Source of the DNA: Trichomonas vaginalis G3
Taxonomy: Eukaryota; Parabasalia; Trichomonadida; Trichomonadidae
Direction: 5' to 3'
Length of the DNA stretch: 64,000 nucleotides
Assembly (NCBI RefSeq): GCF_026262505.1
Contig: NC_067207.1
Coordinates: 33,572,082 to 33,636,081, forward strand
Positions 6,000-45,869 of the stretch are shown in pieces. Numbering within the stretch: position 1 is the first letter of the stretch; every line of letters begins with the position of its first letter. The notes beneath the pieces are model-generated. The model did no database searches, was not told where the DNA came from, and was given only the letters and a program-made list of their open reading frames with translations. Both the position numbers and the translations under genes were made by a program.

Positions 6000-6360
6000 T
6001 TTTCATGACTTCTTCGTAAATGTTTTGTCAAGACTTCTTCGTAAATGTTTTGTCAAGACTTCTTCGTAAATGTTTTGTCAAGACTTCTTCGTAAATGTTT
6101 TGTCAAGACTTCTTCGTAAATGTTTTGTCAAGACTTCTTCGTATATGCTTTGTCAAACATGAACGTATATGCTTTGTCAAACATGAACGTAAATGTTTTG
6201 TCAAGACTTCTTCGTATATGCTTTGTCAAACATGAACGTAAATGTTTTGTCAAGACTTCTTCGTAAATGTTTTGTCATGACTTCTTCGTAAATGTTTTTT
6301 CACCTCTTGAATTTTCATGACTTCTTCGTAAATGTTTTGTCAAGACTTCTTCGTAATGAG
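6000..6360. repeat. 25-bp satellite array, forward orientation
   Basis: About 13 head-to-tail copies of ACTTCTTCGTAAATGTTTTG plus TCAAG, with variants in which the start is ACATGAACGTA. The same unit recurs at 6795-6890 in this orientation and at 8290-8610 reversed, so the accessory gene at 6992-7933 lies between facing arrays. Confidence 0.85.
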
Positions 6361-6477
6361 TGTAAAGGACCCAAAAATAAAGTTTATGTTAGAATGTTAG
6401 ATCTAACACGTTTTCTAACACGTTTTCTACCCTCTTGAATTTTCATGAATTTTCCCGAAATAAAAAATAAAGTTAGT

Positions 6478-6712
6478 TTTTTTTCATTTTTTTGTATGTA
6501 AGATATGATTTCAGGGATTTTTTTGACGAAGTGCAAACGTTCACTTCGTCAAAAAATAACAGTTATCTAATGAAAAAGTGTCATTTTTTTGTATTTTTTT
6601 GTATGTAAGATATGATTTCAGGGATTTTTTTGACGAAGTGCAAACGTTCACTTCGTCAAAAAATAACAGTTATCTAATGAAAAAGTGTCATTTTTTTCAT
6701 TTTTTTGTATTT
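6478..6712. repeat. tandem duplication (about 115 bp) with a 15-bp-stem hairpin in each copy
   Basis: Two nearly identical copies (about 6482-6595 and 6596-6710). Each begins with the promoter-like TTTTTTGTATGTAAGATATG that in intact form precedes the accessory gene at 6992. Each contains TTTTTTGACGAAGTG and its exact reverse complement around an 8-nt loop. They look like relics of the accessory gene's 5' region. Confidence 0.7.
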
Positions 6713-6721
6713 GACGAGAAT

Positions 6722-6915
6722 GTCGGGTAGATGGTTAGATCTAACACGTTTTCTAACACGTTTTCTAACACGTTTTCTAACCTCTTGAATTTTCATGACT
6801 TCTTCGTAAATGTTTTGTCAAGACTTCTTCGTAAATGTTTTGTCAAGACTTCTTCGTAAATGTTTTGTCAAGACTTCTTCGTAAATGTTTTTTCACCTCT
6901 TTTTTCACCTCTTGA
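6722..6915. repeat. intergenic module: GGTTAGATCTAAC palindrome plus satellite units
   Basis: Contains the palindromic block around 6730, repeated ACGTTTTCTA units, then four satellite copies and a CACCTC-rich stretch. A shorter version of the same arrangement lies at 5950-6010 and 6395-6450. Confidence 0.6.
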
Positions 6916-8290: not shown

Positions 8291-8625
8291 TTACGCTCAT
8301 TACGAAGAAGTCTTGACAAAACATTTACGAATAAGTCTTGACAAAACATGTACGTTCATGTTTGACAAAACATTTACGAAGAAGTCTTGACAAAACATTT
8401 ACGAATAAGTCTTGACAAAACATTTACGAAGAAGTCTTGACAAAACATGTACGTTCATGTTTGACAAAACATTTACGAAGAAGTCTTGACAAAACATTTA
8501 CGAATAAGTCTTGACAAAACATATACGAAGAAGTCTTGACAAAACATATACGTTCATGTTTGACAAAACATTTACGAAGAAGTCTTGACAAAACATTTAC
8601 GATGAAATCATGAAAATTCACGAGG
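8290..8625. repeat. 25-bp satellite array, reverse orientation
   Basis: About 13 copies of the reverse complement of the 6000-6360 unit (TCTTGACAAAACATTTACGA core), with variants carrying ACGTTCATGTTTGACAAAA. Long open frames through it are repeat translation, not genes. Confidence 0.85.
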
Positions 8626-8884: not shown

Positions 8885-9760
8885 TCAAGCTTGACTTTTT
8901 ACAATTTGAACTTTGTTTGCGTAGATATGAATTCTGAAAGAAGTATGAGGGTCTTGTATGACTTTGTACTTCTCCCATAGTTCATGTCTGTCAAACTTAC
9001 CTGCCATGGACTCTTTCATAAGTTCCATGAAATCGTCTTCGGACAATCCGGGGAAAAGTACAATGTCAGTAAGTATTCTTTTAACATCCTTACTTAAACT
9101 CTTTGCTGTCTGTACACAAATGACAACTGAGATGTTAAAGTGTCTGAGCTTCTTAAGAATTCGACACATGTCTTGTTCTCTGTTCTTTAACAAAGGATGA
9201 GAAGCAAAGTCATCTAAGATAAGAAGACATCTATGAGGGTAAGTCTTCCAATCGTAAGATTGCAATTTCTTCGAAATGTATTCTATCTCTTTCTGTTTGT
9301 TTCTGAAGTGTTTCTTCTCTAATATTCTCTGCATTTCCTCATTTGGGTCTTTAAACTTAGAATTTAGATACGCATTTATAGCATTATACTTCAAAACTCT
9401 TCTTTGGTACTTCTTTATCCAATCTAACAACTCAGTATCCTTTATACATACTAACTTAGACTTCTTTATAATATCTTTGAACGAATTGACGGTTTGGTCA
9501 AATTGACCAGAAGTACTACAAATGACTACTAACTCATAGAATGGGTTCTTCTCATCTAGTTCTTGTTGTTGTGCAGCCATTTTAAGATAAGTGAAAGTCT
9601 TACCCGACCCAGGTGGTGCAATTAGACCTGTTATACCATTCTGAGCAAATAAGAACTTGTCATGTATAGGCTTTATCTGAGCATTTTCTAACTTCCTCTT
9701 GTTCTTGTTTAAAACATTCTCAAATTTCTTGTCAATGTCAGCAAACTTTTTTTCTAACAT
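8885..9760 (-). CDS. DNA packaging ATPase (FtsK/HerA, A32-like), element A
   Basis: Genome-packaging motor ATPase typical of Mavericks and related viruses. With the ATG at 9760 the protein is 291 aa: Walker A APPGSGKT at residues 48-55, Walker B LLILDD at 179-184, and a sensor-like VVICVQT near 211-217. An earlier in-frame ATG (9862) would overlap the divergent gene at 9797. The chosen start leaves a 36-bp A/T-rich divergent promoter and is preferred. No frameshift is visible, so this is one of the few intact core genes of element A. The homologue in element B (36564-37489) is broken. Confidence 0.85.
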   Translation of the reverse strand: MLEKKFADIDKKFENVLNKNKRKLENAQIKPIHDKFLFAQNGITGLIAPPGSGKTFTYLKMAAQQQELDEKNPFYELVVICSTSGQFDQTVNSFKDIIKKSKLVCIKDTELLDWIKKYQRRVLKYNAINAYLNSKFKDPNEEMQRILEKKHFRNKQKEIEYISKKLQSYDWKTYPHRCLLILDDFASHPLLKNREQDMCRILKKLRHFNISVVICVQTAKSLSKDVKRILTDIVLFPGLSEDDFMELMKESMAGKFDRHELWEKYKVIQDPHTSFRIHIYANKVQIVKSQA

Positions 9761-9796
9761 ATTTTTAGAAAAATTAAAATTTTTATCTTTTAGAAA

Positions 9797-10144
9797 ATGT
9801 CTAGCGATTTCGCTATCTATATTCGAGACAAGCTTTTCGACAGCAAAACATCTGTCGACCATAAAATCTTACATAGTGTAAACAAGAAAGGTGAATTTGT
9901 TCTAAAGTTCTGTTTCTGGGAATATGACAAGAACCATAAAACATTACAAAGAGCAGTCTTAAAATTTGTCAATGACAGACTTGTTGACAGAGATGACACC
10001 GATTGGAAAGATGAAGTCCAACAAAAGTTCTTAGAATGCAAAGAAGACACATGCGCTGTTCTTGAAGATGAAATAGAAAACAGAATAGAAGAGCTATTAA
10101 AGGACAAAGAACTTTTACATAAATATGGTTGCGCCCAAATTTGA
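9797..10144 (+). CDS. hypothetical Maverick protein (115 aa), shared by A and B
   Basis: Intact frame divergent from the packaging ATPase across a 36-bp A/T promoter. The sequence resembles the 124-aa protein at 46263-46637 in element B: both have a short N-terminal helix, an F-x-F/W-x-x-x-x-YD-K/R segment, VKFVxxRLV-like residues and a Cys near the end. The function is unknown. Conservation in two diverged elements argues for a real gene. Its end overlaps the start of the small basic gene at 10125 by 20 nt. Confidence 0.6.
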   Translation: MSSDFAIYIRDKLFDSKTSVDHKILHSVNKKGEFVLKFCFWEYDKNHKTLQRAVLKFVNDRLVDRDDTDWKDEVQQKFLECKEDTCAVLEDEIENRIEELLKDKELLHKYGCAQI

Positions 10145-19504: not shown

Positions 19505-20428
19505 ATGAATACACTAAAAGCTGATCTTAGAACAATATTATTGCAGGAGAAAGAGCATCCATTGACACAGGAAATAGAATCATTAATAGAACAATCATTT
19601 AATCCTAATTATATTAAACCAGTAAAAACATGGGCTCTAATCCACGATGAAAAGAAGAGATCAAAGCTTATCGCGCTTCTAAAGGGAGGAATGACTATCA
19701 AGAAGCTACCAAAACTCGTTACAGGCGTTCTGGAACCTCAGCCTGAATTTGTTCTTACTACAGCAACCTCTGTTATCGATGTAAATCACTGCTTCCCACA
19801 AATATCTCCAAGAAGAAAGCAAATGGATGTTACAAGACGCTCCCAAATCATGGAGCAAGGAATATTTGGAAATTCATCAAAATATGCAGGAGTTCAACAA
19901 CCAAAAACAAACATTATCGAGTTTCAATGCCGAAAATTATTCAATCCATTAGCAATGGAGAGAATTTTACCGACTGCTGAATTAAATATCGCTTTTATCA
20001 GAGAAATAGTCAATTGGTGTGATACAAACGCAAACTACTATCCATATATTGACAAAGCTCCTGATTTCGAGAGCAGTCCACGAGGACAAGCTTATCTTTA
20101 CAAAAGAATCCTGAAAGAAGACCATTTAATGAATAATACGTATGTACAAACCAATCCAAACTCTCCAAGAGTAAGAGAACCTCCTTCTACATCTAGATCT
20201 TTAATGTATTCAGTATATAAAGATACATTTTCCCCAGAATCCACAAAAGGCTTCAAACCATCGAATCCTGTTATTCCTCCATTAGGACAATGTCCTTTCA
20301 GTCGTTATCCACAAGTAAATGCAGAAGAATACGTATATACTAATGAACAAGTTCAGGAACAGTGTTTAAGCAATCGAACTGCAAGAAGAGCTTTTAGAAA
20401 CGTATTTAATGCTAAGACACATATCTAA
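19505..20428 (+). CDS. host hypothetical protein (307 aa)
   Basis: Intact intronless frame with Trichomonas-like codon use. The N-terminal 80 residues are helical; the rest has many short Pro, Tyr and Arg motifs (FSRYPQ, YPYIDKAPDFESSPRGQAYLYKR) and no membrane segment or signal peptide. I recognise no domain. Its low-complexity-free, Tyr/Pro-rich pattern resembles cytoskeletal or flagellar accessory proteins of protists, but this is only an impression. The start is supported by a nearby initiator-like TCAATTT. Confidence 0.75.
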   Translation: MNTLKADLRTILLQEKEHPLTQEIESLIEQSFNPNYIKPVKTWALIHDEKKRSKLIALLKGGMTIKKLPKLVTGVLEPQPEFVLTTATSVIDVNHCFPQISPRRKQMDVTRRSQIMEQGIFGNSSKYAGVQQPKTNIIEFQCRKLFNPLAMERILPTAELNIAFIREIVNWCDTNANYYPYIDKAPDFESSPRGQAYLYKRILKEDHLMNNTYVQTNPNSPRVREPPSTSRSLMYSVYKDTFSPESTKGFKPSNPVIPPLGQCPFSRYPQVNAEEYVYTNEQVQEQCLSNRTARRAFRNVFNAKTHI

Positions 20429-20858
20429 TTCTTGTGGTTTTGAAAGGTTAAATTTATTTTGATTTTTTGAGGTTTGTTTTGTCTATTGTTTGCTTAAAAA
20501 TTATTTTAGAAAACAAAAATATTTTATTTTGCTTTACTACGAATCCAAAAACTTTGATTTATCCTTAAAAATTTGATCAAAATTCTCAATAAAACCTTAA
20601 TTAGACATGAATATCTGTTTAAAATACCTTATATTCCTGATAATGAGATGTTGTTCTTATTATTTTCTCTTCTAAAATGATATTTACAATCACTTTTGAA
20701 TTGATTTCGTCATAATTTAAGCTTGAGAGATCATTTTGAAGTTTAGCGATGCCAACTTATTGTATCTATAGTAGATTTCTAATAATATCTATCTGTAAAT
20801 AATTGAATAAATTGTTTTTATTCGAAAATTAGATTTGTTTAATTTTAATATTATCGTG
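20429..20858. other. host intergenic DNA, no gene seen
   Basis: AT-rich, with stops in all frames and no repeat noticed. It ends at the outer inverted repeat of the hairpin-array element. Confidence 0.5.
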
Positions 20859-21193
20859 TTGCATGCTAGGTAGTGTCAATGTGTAAACCTCTCAATTTTA
20901 TCATCGGGGAAGCAACACAATTCCCTCAAAAATATTGAAAAAATATAGAAAATAAAATGAATTAAGATGTACTTAAAATGAGAAATAGATTATGATATTA
21001 GATTTTAGAAAAAACAGACTTTTGATATAACTTTTGAGAATCTCATATAAAAAAAAGCATTTAAAAATAAATTTAAATATCTTATTTATTTTACTATTGT
21101 AAATATATTCTGAGATTTTTAGAAAAAAACACTTTTCATAAGTATTCAATATTTGAAAATACGCTCCAAAAAAGAATAGATTCTCTTATATTT

Positions 21194-22255
21194 GCTTATA
21201 TAAAAGGAAACTCTCTATCAGATGCGAATGCATGAATTCAGCACCTCTGATAGAGAGTTTCCTCTTATATAAGCGGATCTTTTTCATGAGTTATTGTTAA
21301 TATAAAAACATAAAAAGCTTCTAATATGAGAAATTAAACCATGCGAGGTGCCAGTCTAGAACTGGCGCTTCGCAGGGTTTAATTTCTCTTGACAAATGAC
21401 AAAACTTGTTCGCAATTGTGAACCATTGCGAGCAAGTTTGCCAGATATCTGGAAGGAATTGCTCCTTATGATATATGCATTGTAACTGTATATATCATAA
21501 AGAGCAATTCCTTCAATTAAACGCAAAAACTTTGGTGCAATCGTTGCTGATTGCACCAAAGTTTTCGAACTTTCCCGAGGGAATTGGAGGGTGAGAGATA
21601 CATAGTCTATCTATGTACCTCCCACCCTCCAAATCCCACTCTAAATGGGAGAAACTTTGTTCGCATGTTATCTTATTCAAAACAAAGTTTCTCCCATTTA
21701 GAGAAGGAATAGGAGCCTACCAGGCACTGATATATAATCAGTGCTTTGTAGGCTCCTATTCCTAATAGAAAGTTCGAAAACTCGGTCGCAATTGCATCTG
21801 ATTGCGACCGAGTTTTCGAACTTTCCCGATGGAATTGAAGGGTGAGAGGTATATAGTATGCCTATATGCCTCTCACCCTCCAATTCCTTCTCTGAAGCTG
21901 GGAAATTTTGTCCAAATGTTAAACTATTCAGACAAAATTTCCCAGCTTCAGAGAAGGAATAGGAGCCTACCAGGCACTGATATATAATCAGTGCTTTGTA
22001 GGCTCCTATTCCTAATAAAAATTTGAAAACTTTGGAGCATTTGATTATTGTATTTTGTCAAGAGAAATTCAACCCTGCGAAGTGCCAGTTCTAGACTGGT
22101 GCCTCGCAGGGTTTAATTTCTCATATTGGTAGATTTTGATGTTTTTATATTAACAAAAACGAATGAAAAAGATTTGCTTATATAAGAGGAAACTCTCTAT
22201 CAGAGGTGCTGAATTCAGGCATTCGCATCTGATAGAGAGTTCCTTTTATATAAGC
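21194..22255. repeat. array of about 14 contiguous hairpins
   Basis: Successive stem-loops at about 21194-21274, 21328-21388, 21403-21438, 21452-21514, 21526-21565, 21579-21637, 21639-21703, 21705-21763, 21768-21825, 21831-21887, 21888-21955, 21955-22013, 22062-22122 and 22176-22255. Stems are 13-29 bp and several are perfect (for example 25 bp around an 8-nt loop at 21768-21825). The first two and last two are arms of the inner inverted repeat. Confidence 0.85.
21526..22013. repeat. two tandem units of four hairpins each
   Basis: Hairpins at 21526-21763 and 21768-22013 correspond one to one in order. The fourth of each unit (AGGAATAGGAGCC stem) is identical. The first three differ between units, yet each stays paired because both arms changed together (for example stems ACTTTGGTGCAAT and ACTCGGTCGCAAT). 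Confidence 0.75.
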
Positions 22256-22664
22256 AATATAAGAATCTATTCTTTTTTGGAGCGTATTTTCAAATATTGA
22301 ATACTTATGAAAAGTGTTTTTCCTAAAAATTTAATATAATGCTTAGCACAATATATAAAATTAAAATATCTATAATTATTTTCTATATCACACTTTTCAT
22401 TACACCTTGAAAAGTCTTCTCAAACTCTATTTTTAATTATTTTTTAGATATATCTCAAGTGTGATTATTCAAAAACTCATATAGACTATATTTATTTTTT
22501 CATTCAAAAAATTATATGAGAATCTCAAATTAACTTTCAAATTTTTTATTTTAAAAACATATTAATAATCATATTTTAAGATACTTTGTCGCCCAAAAAT
22601 AATCGTACTTCCTCGACGATTAATAGGCTCTCAATTTCTATCGTTGACACTACTTAGCATGCAA

Positions 22665-22963
22665 CAATCGAAGATATTTCATGATTGATAATTCAGATAT
22701 GTTTGAATTGGACTTTATTTCTTCTCAATTGTTTTTTATCATCACACAATTTTTGTGAGAAATGATTTCGTTCTATATAACCATCGCTACATATTGATAT
22801 AAATTTGATTCCACTGTGTAAAAATATTGAAACTTTCATAAACTGTAAAATGTTCTGTAAAATAATTCTACTATGATTTGGTTTAGTATATTGAATAACA
22901 CAATAATGGCTCAGCAGCCAAAATTGAATACTATCTCAATTCTGAACAATCATAAAAAGTTAT
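22665..22963. other. host intergenic DNA
   Basis: AT-rich with no gene, apart from a 19-codon open frame at 22906-22965 that is in frame with the following gene but closed by TAA. Confidence 0.4.
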
Positions 22964-22998
22964 AAAATTCACATCATTTCTTCAGACTTGGTTGCAGA

Positions 22999-23484
22999 TT
23001 GAATGATTTCTTCAAAAAGAAGTCTATTATTAAACGCGTATTAGGTGTCATTGCCTTCTTGGCAACTGTTGTTGGTCTTGCAGGCCTCACAGTTTGGTAC
23101 ATCAGATGGGCAAAGAACCTAAACCAAGTTAGCAAAGACTTGAGAACCAAGACATACACAGAACTTTTCAATATTGTTGCCTCTTGCTGTTTCTTCTGCA
23201 TGGCTGGCTGTGCTGCGTGGGTTGTTTTGTTCATTTTCTGGAATTTTGAATGCTGCAAATGTCTTGGAATTATTTTCTTCTGGGCAGCAATGGGTATTTG
23301 CTTAGCAGTTCTCGGATTTGCCATTTCTCTAGCAATTAAGGTCAAAGGAAAGTATTATTGCACAAATGCAGTTATTTGGGGTGATGATAATATCAATTGC
23401 AGAGGCTCATTTGTTCCAAATGTTGCATTGCTCTCTACTTTAGGTTTCGGTCTCATCTTAGATCTTATTATGAAATGCGATTAA
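22999..23484 (+). CDS. host membrane protein with about four transmembrane segments; start codon unclear
   Basis: The frame encodes about 160 residues with four hydrophobic segments (about 14-35, 53-75, 80-108 and 135-155), a CCKC motif and a Cys pair in the last loop, reminiscent of small tetraspan proteins. No family is certain. No ATG opens this frame: the first candidate codon is TTG at 22999, and the local ATTGAATG suggests a one-base change destroyed the original ATG. A TCATTTC initiator at 22974-22980 supports transcription starting just upstream. An upstream in-frame ATG (22906) is closed by TAA. It may therefore be a recent pseudogene. Confidence 0.55.
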   Translation: MNDFFKKKSIIKRVLGVIAFLATVVGLAGLTVWYIRWAKNLNQVSKDLRTKTYTELFNIVASCCFFCMAGCAAWVVLFIFWNFECCKCLGIIFFWAAMGICLAVLGFAISLAIKVKGKYYCTNAVIWGDDNINCRGSFVPNVALLSTLGFGLILDLIMKCD

Positions 23485-24082
23485 ATTGTACTATTCCAAT
23501 TACTAAAAATCATTTTTATTTCTTATTTTAAAGATCTTCAGTTCTTGATTTACTTAATTTTTTATTTTTTATTACAAATATTCTTTAATTGAATCTCTAT
23601 TTGGGATATTGTAAAATTTCAGAACGAACAACATCTTGGAAAGTAAGAGAAACAAAACGAATGTCAAAAAAATAAAAATTTTTAAATAGACTTGGTAATC
23701 ATATATTTACATCTATGATTCATCATAGGCATAAACACGTAGAAAGATTTTTTTCAAGCAGCATCAAATATTGCAATATTAAAGTAATCGAAATGTTAAA
23801 TAAAAGGTAATGCTCTGGTAAAAATACTTTCTGTTAATGTGCTGTAACTTTAAATAGTATGTATCTAGTTCAACGTTCTGTATTGTCTGTATAAAATCGA
23901 GAATTGAATACAAATTGAACAATATATGTATGAATTCAGGTAAAAGTAATTGCATTGAGTATTCCAACCATTCACTTAAGTTCGAGTTAGAGACAGCTAT
24001 AAAATTTTTCCGAGACAAGTTAGATTTTCCATAAAATCTACGTAAACATCAGAAAAATATCCGTTAAAAAAATTTTTATCCG
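23485..24082. other. host intergenic DNA, no gene seen
   Basis: AT-rich; the longest minus-strand open stretch (23779-24018) has no ATG and no coding character. Confidence 0.5.
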
Positions 24083-24682
24083 ATGAGAGGCTGCATAACT
24101 CCCGAAATTAATATGCACCATGGCGGCCTATTTGAAACAGAAGTAAGTAGACCTATGACTCCTATTCATTACGTTAGCGAAATCGGAGATTTACCTGAAG
24201 TATTTACTCTTCCAAAAACAACACGTAATCATGCTAAAAAATTAGTACCAAAACAAACAGGATTAAGGTTTGCACCTAAAAACGTCGTTTCTCTTGATAT
24301 CGAATCAATTCCAAAATCTTGCCCAACTTCTGCACGTCGTCCGAAGTCAGTAATGACAAAACAACCTTTCAAATCATTTGGAAGATCTCCCTCAAGGCCT
24401 CAATCTCGCCTCCCAACAACTAACGAAATCAAAAATCTTCGAAAACAAGTAGAATCTAATCAACCACGTGTTATTCATTGGGGAAGTTCTACAGATCAGA
24501 TGCCGTATTACAATAATCTTAATATAGAAGTCGAACCTGAAGAACCAAACCCTGATAATATTATCAAAGATCAGGAAGAAATAGATATTTCTAGACCATT
24601 GCAACCAGTTGGTTTAATATCAAATACAGCTTCTATCATGGATTATTGCGGAATTCCTAGTTCATTGACTTTCATTCGTTAA
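24083..24682 (+). CDS. host hypothetical basic protein (199 aa)
   Basis: Intact intronless frame. The protein is rich in Pro, Ser, Arg and Lys through the middle (RSPSRPQSRLPTTNEIKNLR) with an acidic stretch near 150-170, and has no membrane segment. It looks mostly disordered, with short linear motifs. No family recognised. Flanked by host intergenic DNA; its 3' neighbour is convergent. Confidence 0.65.
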   Translation: MRGCITPEINMHHGGLFETEVSRPMTPIHYVSEIGDLPEVFTLPKTTRNHAKKLVPKQTGLRFAPKNVVSLDIESIPKSCPTSARRPKSVMTKQPFKSFGRSPSRPQSRLPTTNEIKNLRKQVESNQPRVIHWGSSTDQMPYYNNLNIEVEPEEPNPDNIIKDQEEIDISRPLQPVGLISNTASIMDYCGIPSSLTFIR

Positions 24683-24888
24683 CTTCTGATATCAATTCAA
24701 TTATCATTTCTTTGTTTGTATAAATCAATTGCGTTTTCGTAATTACCAATTTTTTTTAACTTCCTTCTTTTTATTGGAATATAAATTTGAAATTCCTTCC
24801 AAATTCATACCAACTATACTTTTAAACGCAAATAATTTTGATTATTATTTTATTCTTATAATTGATTGGTAAAATAAGTAATATTATT

Positions 24889-25701
24889 TTAAAACAATGG
24901 CAATTGATAAAATGTTAGGATAACATCTTGTGTATTTGGTTCACTAGATCCAATATTAATTGCATTTCTTGTTCCTTGAGAAAATTCTAATAACATTTGA
25001 TCTGTGATTTCTTTTGGAACCCATTTTGGTCTAGACCCATCACCTTTTGCATATTTCTCTTTTAAGAAATATCGTCTTTGAGCAATCAGTCTTTGAATCT
25101 TTATTTTGTCTTTTTGAATTTTCTTGCAAAGATTATCGACTATGCCATGAGGAAGTTTTGATTTGATATCTGTACCAAATATGATCTTACAAACTTCTCT
25201 TTCTTTCTCAATATCAAGTTTATTAAGGTTCAATGAATCATCAGCTTTGTTTTTTGTTGAGTGTAAAATGTTTTCTATTTGATTTTCAGCAGATTTTGCG
25301 ATATGATTTAGGCAGTTAACACAATCATCAACTTCCTTCTGGGCAGTATTTCGATCAATTTGTTTATCATATTTCATTATTTCCATCTTTTTCTTGAAAT
25401 TACATATGACACTTTTCTTTAGTTCATTGTATTTCTCTAAAATGTTAATAATGCATATCATTCTAACCACTGCTAAAGCATTTGTGTTAGCTTCCGAACC
25501 AGGGAATGTAGGTTTATATAATTTTTGAACTGTAAGATTTCCAAACCAGGCATTTGGGAAATTATCTGATTTTGTAAATGTATCTATGTTATCAGTTACA
25601 GGAGTTAATTGTAGACTAGGCAATTCATCTGTAAAGCACTTGGAAAGATCACTACTTGCAATATCTAGTGAAAAATTCTCGCCGACATCTTCTTCTTCCA
25701 T
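24889..25701 (-). CDS. host hypothetical protein with coiled coil (270 aa)
   Basis: Intact frame from ATG at 25701. The N-terminus is acidic; a central Lys/Glu/Asn-rich helical region (about 95-175) includes several Cys. A basic helical segment (RRYFLKEKYAKGDGSRPKW, about 208-226) could bind nucleic acid, and the end is hydrophobic. It vaguely recalls a homeodomain-like arrangement, but the conserved W-F-N-R signature is missing, so no assignment is made. Convergent with the gene at 24083. Confidence 0.65.
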   Translation of the reverse strand: MEEEDVGENFSLDIASSDLSKCFTDELPSLQLTPVTDNIDTFTKSDNFPNAWFGNLTVQKLYKPTFPGSEANTNALAVVRMICIINILEKYNELKKSVICNFKKKMEIMKYDKQIDRNTAQKEVDDCVNCLNHIAKSAENQIENILHSTKNKADDSLNLNKLDIEKEREVCKIIFGTDIKSKLPHGIVDNLCKKIQKDKIKIQRLIAQRRYFLKEKYAKGDGSRPKWVPKEITDQMLLEFSQGTRNAINIGSSEPNTQDVILTFYQLPLF

Positions 25702-26085
25702 TAAACAATAAAAATTTCAAAATGCATCAAATTTGAGAAGTTTACAAGAAGCAAAAAATATAATAAAATTTAATGATCTTTTGATTAAGCATTAGAACAA
25801 TTAGATCTTCATCAAAATACAAAAAAATCTACATTGATTAAAATCATATTCAATTGATTTTTCTAATATTAAACCCGTCATGAAATGATATAATGATGTT
25901 TTAATGTAATACTCATTTAAATGGAATTATTTTGTTTTTTGTAAAGATTATTGAATTCGAAATTTTGATTGGGAAAATATTGATTCCATATATTCATTAT
26001 GAAGTTATTAATAGAAAAAATCAATTATTTTTGATATGCATTAATCTAATTTTCTTAAATCAGTTTCTCGAAATCAAATTTTTTG
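25702..26085. other. host intergenic DNA, no gene seen
   Basis: Very AT-rich with no credible coding frame. Start of a gene-free 6.4 kb interval that holds several inverted-repeat elements. Confidence 0.5.
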
Positions 26086-28163: not shown

Positions 28164-28205
28164 ATATGTTTTTATATAGATTTCACATAAAATAATTAGG
28201 GTCAT

Positions 28206-30247
28206 TATTGATTTTGTAATTTAATCGTCGTCGTTATCGATTTTGTAATTTAATCGTTATCGTCTTTTTCTAAACGTGCATTTTTTGCTTTCGGAGCTAT
28301 TGAACATACATTGGCCCTTACCAGCAATTGAAAACTATTTTTCATTATCAACAATTACATTACTCCGAGTTATTCATCAATCAATGAAAATCGATATATA
28401 GTCCATACTTCAATTTACAATATTGGCAAGTCCAATTTCACTTGGCATATTTAACTCATATAGAAAAACCAGTTGGAATCGGCAAAATTATCTTTAATTC
28501 CATACATAAGAAAAAAAAATTATAAAGTTCTTCAATAATAGCAAACTAATAGTTTAAATAGATTTACAAGTATCGCCCATCTACTTTTGATATAATTCAC
28601 ATATTAAATGTAGAAAACTGGTTTAAAATAAATATTTCAAAAGTTCGAAAACGATTTATGAAAAAATAATGTGATGACATTTACTAAATTTGCTCTGTAT
28701 TAAAGTATCGATGATAGAAAGAGCATATTTTGTAAATATTTCAAAAATATTAAGGACTTCGACTTTAGCATCACATAAATATGTTATTTTCTATATTAAA
28801 ACGTAATTTTGGTGGTCTTAGAATAGAAAAATATGCAATATTCGTGGAGATAATGAGGGTTCTTAAACATGTTCTTAAAAATAAATAAAATAATACAAAT
28901 CTTTATTCAATCTTTTGATATTGTTGGTCCTCTCTTTGTGAAAATACTTAACTTCAAAGAGTATTATGTTTTACCTAGTGAGACCTTAAGTTTGCAAAAA
29001 CATAATAAAAGTAAAATAAAAAAGATCGATTTATCACAAAACTTTGAGTATTATAGGATTTAATATATTTTCTTAGTAGATTATATGATTTAGTTTCTTA
29101 AAATCTAAAGTATTTCTTGAGGAAAATATAAATTGAAATTCAAAAAGTAAAAAAAATGTAAACAAATCAAATTTTAAATGGACCAAATGTTGATTTTTCA
29201 TTCGTTTTCTCATTATCGAAAAAAATTTGGAAAGCTAAGAAGTCAATAACAAGTTATATAATACAACAAAACCCACATCGGATATGTTTTCATCAAATAG
29301 TCTCCTAGATTTGTTATGAAATTAAAATATCATGATATTTTAAGGGCTTTTGATTTCAATATTAGAATTATTCAGTTATGTCGTGCTAATATCAATTGCT
29401 TTATACAATTAATCGTTTACAAGCTGCAAAAATCGAACAATAATTTGACTTTGTAAAAAAAGTGCGTCATTTTTATTCGTTATACTTACAAAATGTAAAC
29501 ATTACGAGAAACATTTACATTTGTAAATGTAACAAGTAAAGTTGTATCGCATAATTTGACTTTGTAAAAAAAGTGCGTCATTTTTATTCGTTATACTTAC
29601 AAAATGTAAACATTACGAGAAACATTTACATTTGTAAATGTAACAAGTAAAGTTGTATCGCATAATTTGACTTTGTAAAAAAAGTGCGTCATTTTTATTC
29701 GTTATACTTACAAAATGTAAACATTACGAGAAACATTTACATTTGTAAATGTAACAAGTAAATACATCAGATTTAAATTGTAAATGTAGTTTATCTCTCT
29801 CATCTCCTTTTTAAAAGGTATTACATACATACGAACGCATGGGTCACTCAATAATTAGCGTGATAATAATTGAGGATAGACTGTAATCGTAATTTTATTT
29901 TTGGACTTATATTTCGACATTTTGAAGTCGCTTGAAAGTCTTGCAAATGATTAAATTTGGAAAATTTGACCTAAGTCTGCATTATTTTGATGACTTAAAC
30001 AATTCTATAAATCTGTTTTCCTAAAAATTTAAAAAGATATAATTTCAATTTCCCTAAATTTATGTAATTCATATATCACCAAAATATTTGGACTGCATTT
30101 CGTTTGTCTGCACCTAATTAAAGTCTAAATACCAATTAATTTTGGAGTTGCATTGCTTTTAATGTAAAAATGCACGTTTAGAAAAAGACGATAACGATTA
30201 AATTACAAAATCGATAACGACGACGATTAAATTACAAAATCGATAAC
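28206..30247. mobile_element. 2.0 kb non-autonomous element with about 78-bp terminal inverted repeats
   Basis: The left end contains GATTTTGTAATTTAATCG twice, then the TCGTCTTTTTCTAAACGTGC segment. The right end (30170-30247) is its reverse complement over about 78 bp with one mismatch. The interior has no meaningful frame; a 64-codon ATG frame at 28869 has no coding character. It includes a three-copy 111-bp tandem repeat. Transposase absent. Confidence 0.65.
29441..29761. repeat. 111-bp tandem repeat, about 2.9 copies
   Basis: Copies start at 29441, 29552 and 29663 and are almost identical. Each contains ACATTTACATTTGTAAATGT, a 20-bp palindrome. The array lies inside the element at 28206-30247. 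Confidence 0.9.
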
Positions 30248-39547: not shown

Positions 39548-42500
39548 ATGAGTATTGCTGCATATGCGTATGAAGCTGACAGAGCTAAACGTTTATATTT
39601 TGGTCAATACTCTCTCACACTTACTGACAAATATATTGTTATTTCTGATGGAAATACCGAGAAATACATAACATGGAAGGACTATGAAAAGTTTGACCCT
39701 ATTTTAACTCCATGTACAATGCCATTCATTGTAAATGGTGAAGTTGTCATGAAGAACGACACAACAGTATATAAGTCTGTTCATGAAGCGTTAGAATATA
39801 TGTTGAATTATAATCCCGAAAGATTTGACCCAAGCACTACGTCATGTACAATGCCTTTTATTAAGGATGGTGAAATCGTAAGAGTTCCGGATTCAACGGT
39901 TTATACTGCTGTTCAAAACAGTTTACAAAACATTTTAGCGAATATCTTTAATTCAGAAACTACAGAAATAAAATTACCATATATAACAGATGCTAAAGAA
40001 ATTAAATCAAAAACGACAACATTATTTACGTCACTTAATGATTTAATGACTTATATCATTAATATTCCTGCACCAACTACAGCATTTGATCCAAACTCGA
40101 CGGTTTGCAGTGTACCTTTCATAAAGGACAGTTCATTAATTGTTTTAAGGGATTCAACAGTTAATGAATCATTAAAGGCGTCATTAATGAAAATCATTGA
40201 TTTTAACTCATTCACGAATACATATAATTCATTCATTAATGTTTCATATGCTTCTAAAGAAGGTGAGCCAAAAACTATCGATAAAGCGGTGTATGAAATA
40301 AAAGCATCAACGACGAAATTGAATTCGTTAACTTTTGACGGTGATAGTTTCGTTAATGACATAACATCGGGGAAAACAATTTTAACGAAAGAATATTTAA
40401 AATCTCATGTTAGTGAGTTCGTTGAAATTGAAAAAGAAGGTGGAATTAAGTTCGATCCACTGAGTTTCATTTTCAGCTTAGCGAATGCGGGTGTTAGTTT
40501 CGCTGAATGGACAACAATACAGAGTGAAATAAATGCAATATGGACGTTTTTGGGGTCAAAAGCGGGAATGGGTGAGCTTGTAAATGCTGCAAGAACATTA
40601 GGTGAAACAGGAAATTTTGTAGATGGTTTTAAAAGACTTGTTTCAAATGTTTTAACAAACACAAAGAAATTATTTAGATATACCATACATAACGGACGGA
40701 TTTTCGAACAGGTAGCAACAAACCCTCCGGTTATGGCTGCGTTGATGATGGTTAGAGATATAAAACCACGTAACGACGGGAACGAAGAACATGAACAACA
40801 GAGCCCAACGGGCTCAGAGCCACATAGTGGCGAGGATACTGGTCGGGTTATTCAAGACATTAAAAACGTGTATCCTGAAGTTATTGATTTATTTAGAGGA
40901 GTTAATGATTCAATTTCAAAACATTCTATAACCCTCGATGAAGAGAATAAATTAACAGATTATATATTCGTCATTATTGCAGAATTAATGAAGAGAATAA
41001 ATGAAAAAGGAATTGGTGATATCATTAATGTCAGCGATGTAATGATGAAAAGAAATTTTGACTCATTATTTACAAAACCGAAAACAGAATATAGTCTTTA
41101 TGACGTAATTACCGAATTAATGAAAAAGATTAATGATAATAAGAGTTCTGGCGGAAGAGTTGAATTAGAAGTGAATGATGTTAATGAGAAATTAGCCGAA
41201 AAAGCAGATAAAAACCATGTTCATTATATAACTTCAGACGAACAGATTATAACGGACTACCATGGATATTTAACACGAAGTGATGAAGTGAAGACAAAAA
41301 ATGTTAATGAAAGAAGATATAAATACATTCGTGCTAAAGGTTATGACATAAGCTGTACTGTACAGTATGATGTAGCTAAAGCACCAGAAGCATTTGGTTA
41401 TAACGATGAAATTTATGCCTCTACTTTCAATGTTAACGGTGTATTAGTTGAACCAAGATTTACTTTGAGAGTTAAGTCAAAAATAACGTTTGAAGATGCT
41501 ATTAAAAGTAAAGCTGACAAAGTTGAACTCGAAGCAATGAACAAAGTTTTGAAATCTCATAAACACAACATCTCCGATATAAATGAACTTCAAGCTACAT
41601 TAGACAGTAAAGCTGACAAAAATCATACACATAACTCCTTCTCAACTGTTAGAGCAGACGACATAATATTGAACTATACCCTTGGTTCAAGTGCACCTTT
41701 AGAGAATCCAAGTACAAGCGTAAAAGATACACTAAACTCCTTAAATAACAAATGTATGAATATCGAAGGTCATGTCAGAAACTTTGAAACACATGAACTA
41801 CCAGCAATGTTAGACAGTAAAGCCGACAAAACTTATGTGGATACAGAACTAACAAAGAAATTTTCGAAACCAGATACAATGACATTTACAACAGAAATTA
41901 TAAATGGTGAACCATCAACTCCATTTGAATTTGTTAGAGGTCTTCAACCAGATACTTTTGAATTTTTCTTGGATAATTCTATTGAACTAACATTACATTA
42001 TAAAAGTGGAACAAATGCAACATTTCATCCGGGAGATACATTCCAAATGGTATTTAATGACATAAGTTCTTTAGAATATGTTTATAGAGTTATGAGCATA
42101 TATGATTTAATATATCCTATAGGAGCTGTTTATACGTCTATGAATCCAATAAATCCAAACACTTTATTTGGTGGTAGATGGTATGAAATAGTTGACAGTT
42201 TTCCATTCTACACTAATACGCAGTCAATGAAGATGGGAGGTTCAAAGAAAATAGGTATTGAAAACCTTCCTTCACATATGCATAGGTTCAGTGGAAGAAC
42301 ATCTGTGGAAGGAAACCATTCACATTCAATAACAAAAAGAGGTTATACAAATCTTTGCAGCGGGTTCGGATAGACAGGGAATGCATAGATATGATATCAC
42401 AACTGACCCCAAAGATGTTAGCACAGGTATTTTCTGTGGAACTGCAGGAAATCATACACATGTTGTAGCTGGTATTACAGACCCAGCAGGTAATGGAAAA

Positions 42501-45739: not shown

Positions 45740-45869
45740 CTTCACCTATAATATATTTTTGGTCATTTACACTCATTTACGAAGAAGTTATGACAAAGCA
45801 TTTACGAAGAAGTTATGACAAAGTCACGAGGGTGAAAAAAGAGGTGAGAAAACAGGTGACATCTCACCT

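Follow-up and report, generated by a model that had tools for sequence, protein, structure and literature searches.

A Trichomonas vaginalis Transposon Whose Interior Is a Tandem Array of Hairpins That May Be Made and Maintained at the DNA Level

Introduction

What kind of genetic element consists of a chain of separate hairpins, and what keeps the two arms of each hairpin complementary? The question is raised by a locus of Trichomonas vaginalis G3 that lies within a stretch of 64,000 nucleotides (referred to here as the window; contig C5, 33572082–33636081). The original prediction, made from the letters of this stretch, described a transposon-like element at 20859–22664 with inverted ends, an inner inverted repeat, and about 14 back-to-back hairpins, and it proposed three roles: a substrate for a hairpin-reading enzyme, a source of small RNAs, or a product of repeated hairpin-primed repair. 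We examined the element in the window and searched for its relatives in a genome assembly of 180.85 Mb (86 contigs). Positions are those of the window unless a contig or locus is named.

Results

The Window Contains a Complete Non-Autonomous Transposon

The ends of the element, its other copies, and its target duplication identify it as a complete non-autonomous transposon on the forward strand at 20857–22666, in a copy with two units (see below). The predicted element is thus real, but its limits had been placed 2 bp short on each side. The inverted outer ends form 23 bp terminal inverted repeats (TIRs; TGTTGC...GCAACA, 96% complementary) at 20857–20879 (forward) and 22644–22666 (reverse), and they are flanked by a 4 bp target site duplication, ATCG, at 20853–20856 and 22667–22670. 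Inside the TIRs lie AT-rich subterminal regions, both in forward orientation, at 20880–21189 and 22258–22643; these are 83% and 74% identical, respectively, to the corresponding regions of elements with a second type of ends, described below (the right-hand comparison covers element positions 1471–1768). As predicted, there is no transposase or coding frame: the longest of the eight open reading frames (ORFs) of at least 40 aa that overlap the element is 67 aa. None of the 16-mers of the core recurs elsewhere within the 64 kb window. Position 22390 shows a 12/13 match to the T. vaginalis initiator consensus; we abandoned the idea that it marks a promoter, because the seven initiator-like motifs in the window (3.2 expected; seven reached by 7 of 100 shuffles) are not clearly above chance.

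The Core Is a Chain of Hairpins with a Repeated Four-Hairpin Unit

The inner inverted repeat of about 250 bp is present, with a left arm at 21125–21402 (forward) and a right arm at 22048–22321 (reverse) that match in two ungapped blocks (21125–21189 with 22257–22321, 97%; 21203–21402 with 22048–22247, 91%). Span-limited folding of the forward strand gave 14 large hairpins at 21190–22257, the number predicted, plus two weak hairpins in spacers, and the column majority of seven two-unit copies likewise gave 14 hairpins that pass the fold-back filter. Hairpins H1 (21190–21278), H2 (21328–21388), H3 (21403–21438), and H4 (main stem, 21452–21514) are followed by unit A (21526–21763), which comprises H5 (21526–21565), H6 (21579–21637), H7 (21639–21703), and H8 (21705–21763), and by unit B (21768–22013), which comprises H9 (21768–21825), H10 (21831–21887), H11 (21889–21954), and H12 (21955–22013). 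H13 (22062–22122) and H14 (22174–22257) are the inverted partners of H2 and H1. Units A and B are two versions, 80% identical, of a tandemly repeated four-hairpin unit of 250 bp. This two-fold repeat is absent from the original prediction.

The claim that almost no sequence is left unpaired holds for the core, where hairpins cover about 560 of the 611 nt at 21403–22013, but not for the whole stretch, where they cover about 860 of the 1068 nt at 21190–22257 (H4 counted by its main stem only). The folding energy of the core was −230 kcal/mol, compared with −64 ± 6 kcal/mol in 20 shuffles (z = −28.6), which excludes chance palindromes and bears out the view that the array is a series of independent hairpins and not a single terminal fold. 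The 2.2 kb tile that starts at 20001 held 13 tight hairpins; the remaining 31 tiles of the window held one to nine.

Dispersed Copies Differ in Unit Number

A genome-wide search for the end motif with up to two mismatches gave 60 forward and 63 reverse matches, and none with a reversed-pattern control. Loci drawn from 100 of these 123 places contained at least 50 distinct complete copies. A perfect 4 bp target duplication flanked 28 of the 50 (0.80 expected when left and right flanks of different copies are paired), 22 lacked one, and the flanks were mostly different, in agreement with the transposon-like character of the element. The original prediction was to be dropped if no second copy existed; second copies do exist.

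Three length classes make up 39 of the 50 copies: 27 of about 1.56 kb with one unit, seven of about 1.81 kb with two, and five of about 2.06 kb with three, with mean pairwise identities of 97.4%–98.4% within the classes. The other 11 are longer, deleted, or interrupted. A copy of 2311 bp was also seen, and in one of 3311 bp H8 occurs seven times, with a single gap of twice the usual spacing that would accommodate an eighth. Locus L082 holds an array of about 3.9 kb with a higher-order spacing of 443 bp; its left end was not found in the piece examined. The same array types recur among copies.

One insertion could be compared with its own duplicate. The segment at 19900–25723 is present in inverted orientation at C5:33502900–33509500, where locus L087 corresponds to 22667–25723 (98.5% identity) and L088 to 19900–20858 (99.5%). 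The duplicated element (C5:33505932) shows the same insertion and target duplication but has one unit where the window element has two, which indicates that unit number changes in place. Next to the element, the duplicate segment has about 1 kb of additional DNA. Over about 670 positions compared in their ends, the two elements show seven differences, and each is closer to other copies (four differences for the window element, two for its duplicate); conversion by another copy is therefore as possible a cause as unequal exchange. At two other loci, L009 and L013, the copies have 300 bp of right flank in common (99.3%), and their left flanks have no listed match to each other. Neither copy has a 4 bp duplication, and this arrangement of flanks suggests an exchange between copies.

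The Same Interior Occurs within a Second Pair of Ends

We also found the element's interior at L079 and L080 (both on C4) and at L081 (C1), within different ends (GGGCTTGGGT...). Loci L080 and L081 hold element positions 23 to 1768, and L079 holds the left part and the array. Their identity to the window-type element is 82%–91% in those left and core blocks that register best and 79%–80% in blocks that reach the right end. The target duplication of L081 is CTCCCTTCA on both sides (9 bp), and that of L080 is a perfect 8 bp. L079 and L081 have their left site in common, probably because the segment was duplicated; the right end of L079 was not found. Because the same interior lies within two kinds of ends, we conclude that the hairpin block has changed transposon ends.

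A search with the second-type left end returned L079–L081 and five partial matches. The 8–9 bp length of the duplications suggests that the second end type is Mutator-like, a group with 9 bp target duplications. We looked for MULE transposase (PF10551; 150 places listed of 687 candidates) at the partial matches at C5 6.92 Mb and C4 11.77 Mb, and none of the listed places lies at either; one listed place lies 3.7 kb from a weak 87 bp end match at C4 23.65 Mb.

The second-type element of L081 is itself inserted in a repeat of 122 bp units, each with hairpins, which occupies inverted arms at L081 156–918 and 4603–5101 (C1:8955100–8960200) and also occurs at L066 2083–2750. At L066, six 122 bp units stand beside a cut-off copy of the window-type element, and a piece of the repeat is present in L079. 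A search with two 122 bp units gave at least 533 matches (38 scored of 454 candidates), in arrays of several kilobases and in both orientations. Hairpin arrays may be a general habit of repeats in the T. vaginalis genome.

The window contains further repeats. Its Pfam matches are DUF3839, DUF4106, and a Pox_A32-type ATPase. At 8885–9862 and 39548–42373, ORFs with phage-tail-like and Pox_A32-type ATPase domains are probably Maverick or virus-like remnants. Arrays of 25 bp units in opposite orientation flank a DUF3839 ORF (6003–6895 and 8300–8613), and similar units lie near 45774 and 50242. Repeats of 29 bp at 28201–28263 and 30189–30247 resemble the 36 bp TIR of an unnamed 4.3 kb repeat around TvMULE1 (PMC2725143), and between them, at 29440–29762, is a 111 bp repeat (2.9 copies, 100% identity).

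The Ends Point to a Probable IS481EU-Type Transposase Acting in Trans

The window family is non-coding and multi-copy, with TIRs and a target duplication of fixed length, as in a MITE, although usual MITEs are shorter than its 1.6–3.3 kb. Foldback elements have long self-complementary TIRs, whereas here the TIRs are 23 bp and the long inverted repeat is internal. IS481EU transposons have TNT..AYA termini, target duplications of about 4, 15, or 25 bp, and TIRs mostly shorter than 50 bp (PMC10045372, available text). The window family has TGTTGC...GCAACA termini, 23 bp TIRs, and 4 bp duplications; when lengths of 3–30 bp were tried, no copy had a duplication of 15 or 25 bp. Judged by these features, a transposase of the IS481EU type (DDE integrase-like), supplied in trans, is most likely what moves the element. 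It resembles the non-autonomous IS481EU families of T. vaginalis in its TGT...ACA ends, short TIRs (<50 bp), 4 bp duplications, and lack of a transposase; it differs in that the available text on those families makes no mention of hairpin arrays (PMC10045372). Compared by description only, it may be the same as one of the orphan families IS481EU-N1 to N3_TV.

Searches by the end motif (100 of 123 places listed), by the left end, and among longer-spaced copies revealed no coding partner with the same ends. Among the 50 complete copies, ORFs of at least 100 aa were confined to three copies with nested inserts and to the 3311 bp array (116 aa). We considered L047–L051 as autonomous partners and rejected them: they contain nested insertions of an integrase-type element and of an unrelated element of about 3.4 kb, and the rve ORF in L047 and L050, the two loci whose nested elements were tested for the integrase domain, sits in nested elements that have their own ends. 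The nested elements at L047 486–3536, L049 2118–5417, and L050 5273–8350 are related and have inverted ends of about 720 bp with 111 bp repeats; with a 15 bp target duplication in L047, they fit IS481EU. L048 contains a further piece besides the nested insertions. The end pair L067/L083, about 26 kb apart, overlaps at element positions 139–144 and could contain a Maverick.

The Arms of the Hairpins Covary

We analyzed covariation in two sets of 13 hairpins each, Y-type and X-type, all taken from the window or L081; H12 (identical to H8), H1, H2, H13, and H14 were left out. Paired cells amounted to 91% and 90% in the two alignments, and pair-keeping changes on both sides were found at 15 of 26 and 14 of 21 pairs in the Y-type and X-type sets, respectively. 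The covariation score was reached by none of 500 shuffles in either alignment, in a test that favors these structures because they were predicted from the very alignments tested. The number of further pair types was unexceptional (reached by 19 and 114 of 500 shuffles). A consensus folding of 78 distinct units was misaligned in loops and was used for between-unit identities only.

Twelve orthologous hairpins were then compared between the window and L081 with the structure taken from one sequence at a time. Depending on the source of the structure, 41/649 or 37/626 stem positions (about 6%) and 22/108 or 26/131 unpaired hairpin positions (about 20%) differed, and the new mispairs comprised 7 or 8 G·T and 9 or 6 A·C. 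Stem differences were mostly one-sided, with two two-sided Watson-Crick changes, and the AT-rich flanks differed by 17% and 26% between the two lineages. This comparison replaced one based on a joint structure (one-sided G·T, 10; two-sided, 3; stems, 16 of 566; unpaired, 44 of 179), in which A·C mispairs cannot appear and standard pairs are favored.

Within the dispersed family, we measured stem variation in core hairpins only, excluding weak folds in the AT-rich flanks. Core stems varied about as much as flanks or more: 1.10% versus 0.97% in 27 one-unit copies, 0.94% versus 0.75% in five three-unit copies, and 2.15% versus 1.02% in seven two-unit copies, a figure that includes type differences of whole units. 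Private stem changes in dispersed copies created 23 G·T, 27 A·C, and 31 other mispairs and were almost all uncompensated. The 34 two-sided Watson-Crick cells (eight in L052, 25 in L013–L015, one in L026) reflect mostly swaps of whole unit types. As stems in dispersed copies are not protected, whatever upkeep they receive acts in moving lineages and is not visible in resting copies.

Mispairs Lack a Clear G·U Excess, and Some Loops Are Inverted

RNA pairing tolerates G·U better than A·C. In the majority sequences of two families, 941 pairs contained 39 G·T, 32 A·C, and 24 other mispairs. The first family (14 hairpins, 352 pairs) contributed 11 G·T, 10 A·C, and six others, and the second (23 hairpins, 589 pairs), in which G·T is slightly ahead, 28, 22, and 18. 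The three-unit majority had 11 G·T and 14 A·C, and the 26 paralogous hairpins had 35 and 32 in 611 cells. Of the two marks of a structured RNA, covariation is therefore present and a clear G·U excess is not, as judged from raw counts uncalibrated on known RNA.

Among 390 pairs of related hairpins, three had loops that were inverted while the stem was kept (chance mean, 0.012), and 122 had identical loops. The three probably represent two events. The H5 loop GTTGCT is AGCAAC in L081, where the stem tip is identical, and AGATGC stands against GCATCT in stems that differ. A further case, seen by eye and outside the scripted count, is TATGC in H10 versus GCATA in L081. Template switching is reported to make and keep hairpins, with loop inversions and multi-base compensated changes as its footprints, and in the same work 78.5% of two-step compensations in rRNA had passed through G-U (PMC8794818, available text).

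Discussion

On balance, we favor the reading that the window element is a non-autonomous transposon of the IS481EU type that carries, as its interior, a hairpin satellite probably made and maintained at the DNA level. One arm would be copied onto the other, by template switching or by repair of cruciforms, which would keep the arms complementary in moving lineages, and unequal exchange or conversion would add or remove four-hairpin units. The block of hairpins may, as a whole, be favored or constrained, because divergence between the lineages is about three- to fourfold lower in stems than in flanks or at unpaired positions. Since private stem changes are almost all uncompensated, any copying of arms must be infrequent or limited to lineages that are active. 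The roughly 1:1 ratio of G·T to A·C, together with the inverted loops, leads us to favor arm copying at the DNA level and unit exchange, with a possible constraint on DNA structure, over a role in RNA. Among the roles originally proposed, repeated hairpin-primed repair fits best, and it does so in spirit: the arms are compensated without a clear wobble preference, and the loops are inverted.

The hairpins might instead have a function as DNA structures, extruded as hairpins or cruciforms that are bound by proteins or that aid replication or transposition, with selection in moving lineages keeping the arms complementary. Such selection would leave a pattern much like that of arm copying. We regard a function of this kind as unlikely, although several observations are consistent with it: the low divergence of stems between lineages (within dispersed copies stems vary like flanks), the equality of G·T and A·C that is expected where both strands fold, and the persistence of the cargo within two end types. 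Against it, homogenisation between repeats could lower stem divergence too, one-unit copies are the commonest, so that the element spread without need of long arrays, and no binding partner or function is known.

We are more doubtful still that the hairpins serve as RNA, whether the array is transcribed and feeds a small-RNA pathway or folds as a structured RNA that the element needs. The strong covariation among paralogous hairpins, the conservation of stems relative to unpaired positions between lineages, and the small surplus of G·T in the second family would all suit such a role, and T. vaginalis possesses two Argonautes, an ortholog of Dicer, and small RNAs of about 34 nt that map to repeats (PMC7845603, available text). 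The near equality of G·T and A·C, seen both in family majorities and in single copies, argues against it, as do the lack of any Rfam match in the window at the gathering score and initiator-like motifs that do not clearly exceed chance. The same portion of PMC7845603 leaves open whether the 34 nt RNAs need Dicer. The proposal of a small-RNA source thus keeps some possibility and loses the G·U bias that it would be expected to show. Finally, hairpin-rich repeats are hard to assemble and array lengths vary among copies, but an assembly artefact or chance palindromes are highly improbable given the folding z score, the presence of numerous copies at unrelated sites (28 of the 50 complete ones have target duplications), and the recurrence of array types.

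In the open-access literature consulted, we found no description of this hairpin array; the element is unusual in its interior and ordinary as a non-autonomous transposon. Bacterial REP/BIME sequences are hairpin clusters mobilised by RAYT. They are alike as clusters of short mobile hairpins, whereas the window element is eukaryotic and differs in its ends, target duplication, and unit structure. The available text on Tetris, a foldback element of Drosophila virilis, describes another non-autonomous DNA transposon, whose internal tandem repeats occur in long satellite-like arrays as well; in Tetris the repeats lie in the TIRs, whereas here they lie between short TIRs and the unit consists of four separate hairpins (PMC4079207). 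Hairpins ascribed to template switching share perfect stems, multi-base compensated changes, and inverted loops with the array, but those described in the available text are in microRNA and rRNA genes (PMC8794818), whereas here they form a tandem array in a mobile element. "CRISPR-like" repeat chains of T. vaginalis, as described in part of PMC10696477, are also chains of short repeats with inverted repeats, 600–1500 bp long; compared by description, it is possible, as a lead only, that they are misread hairpin arrays.

We put forward more tentatively that the hairpin block is a mobile DNA satellite that rides in unrelated ends, with its arms rewritten pairwise and no RNA selected, and that it forms, with the 122 bp arrays, a class of "hairpin satellites". 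If this is true, base pairing persists while sequence turns over. The element shows a transposon cargo with changed ends and a tandem array that differs in unit number at one known insertion. Covariation is commonly taken as proof of a selected RNA structure, and the most useful point of the present case is strong covariation without a clear RNA wobble signature. As a multi-copy non-coding element with strong covariation but no clear G·U excess, inverted loops, and unprotected decay in dispersed copies, it is a possible natural control for the upkeep of hairpins at the DNA level.
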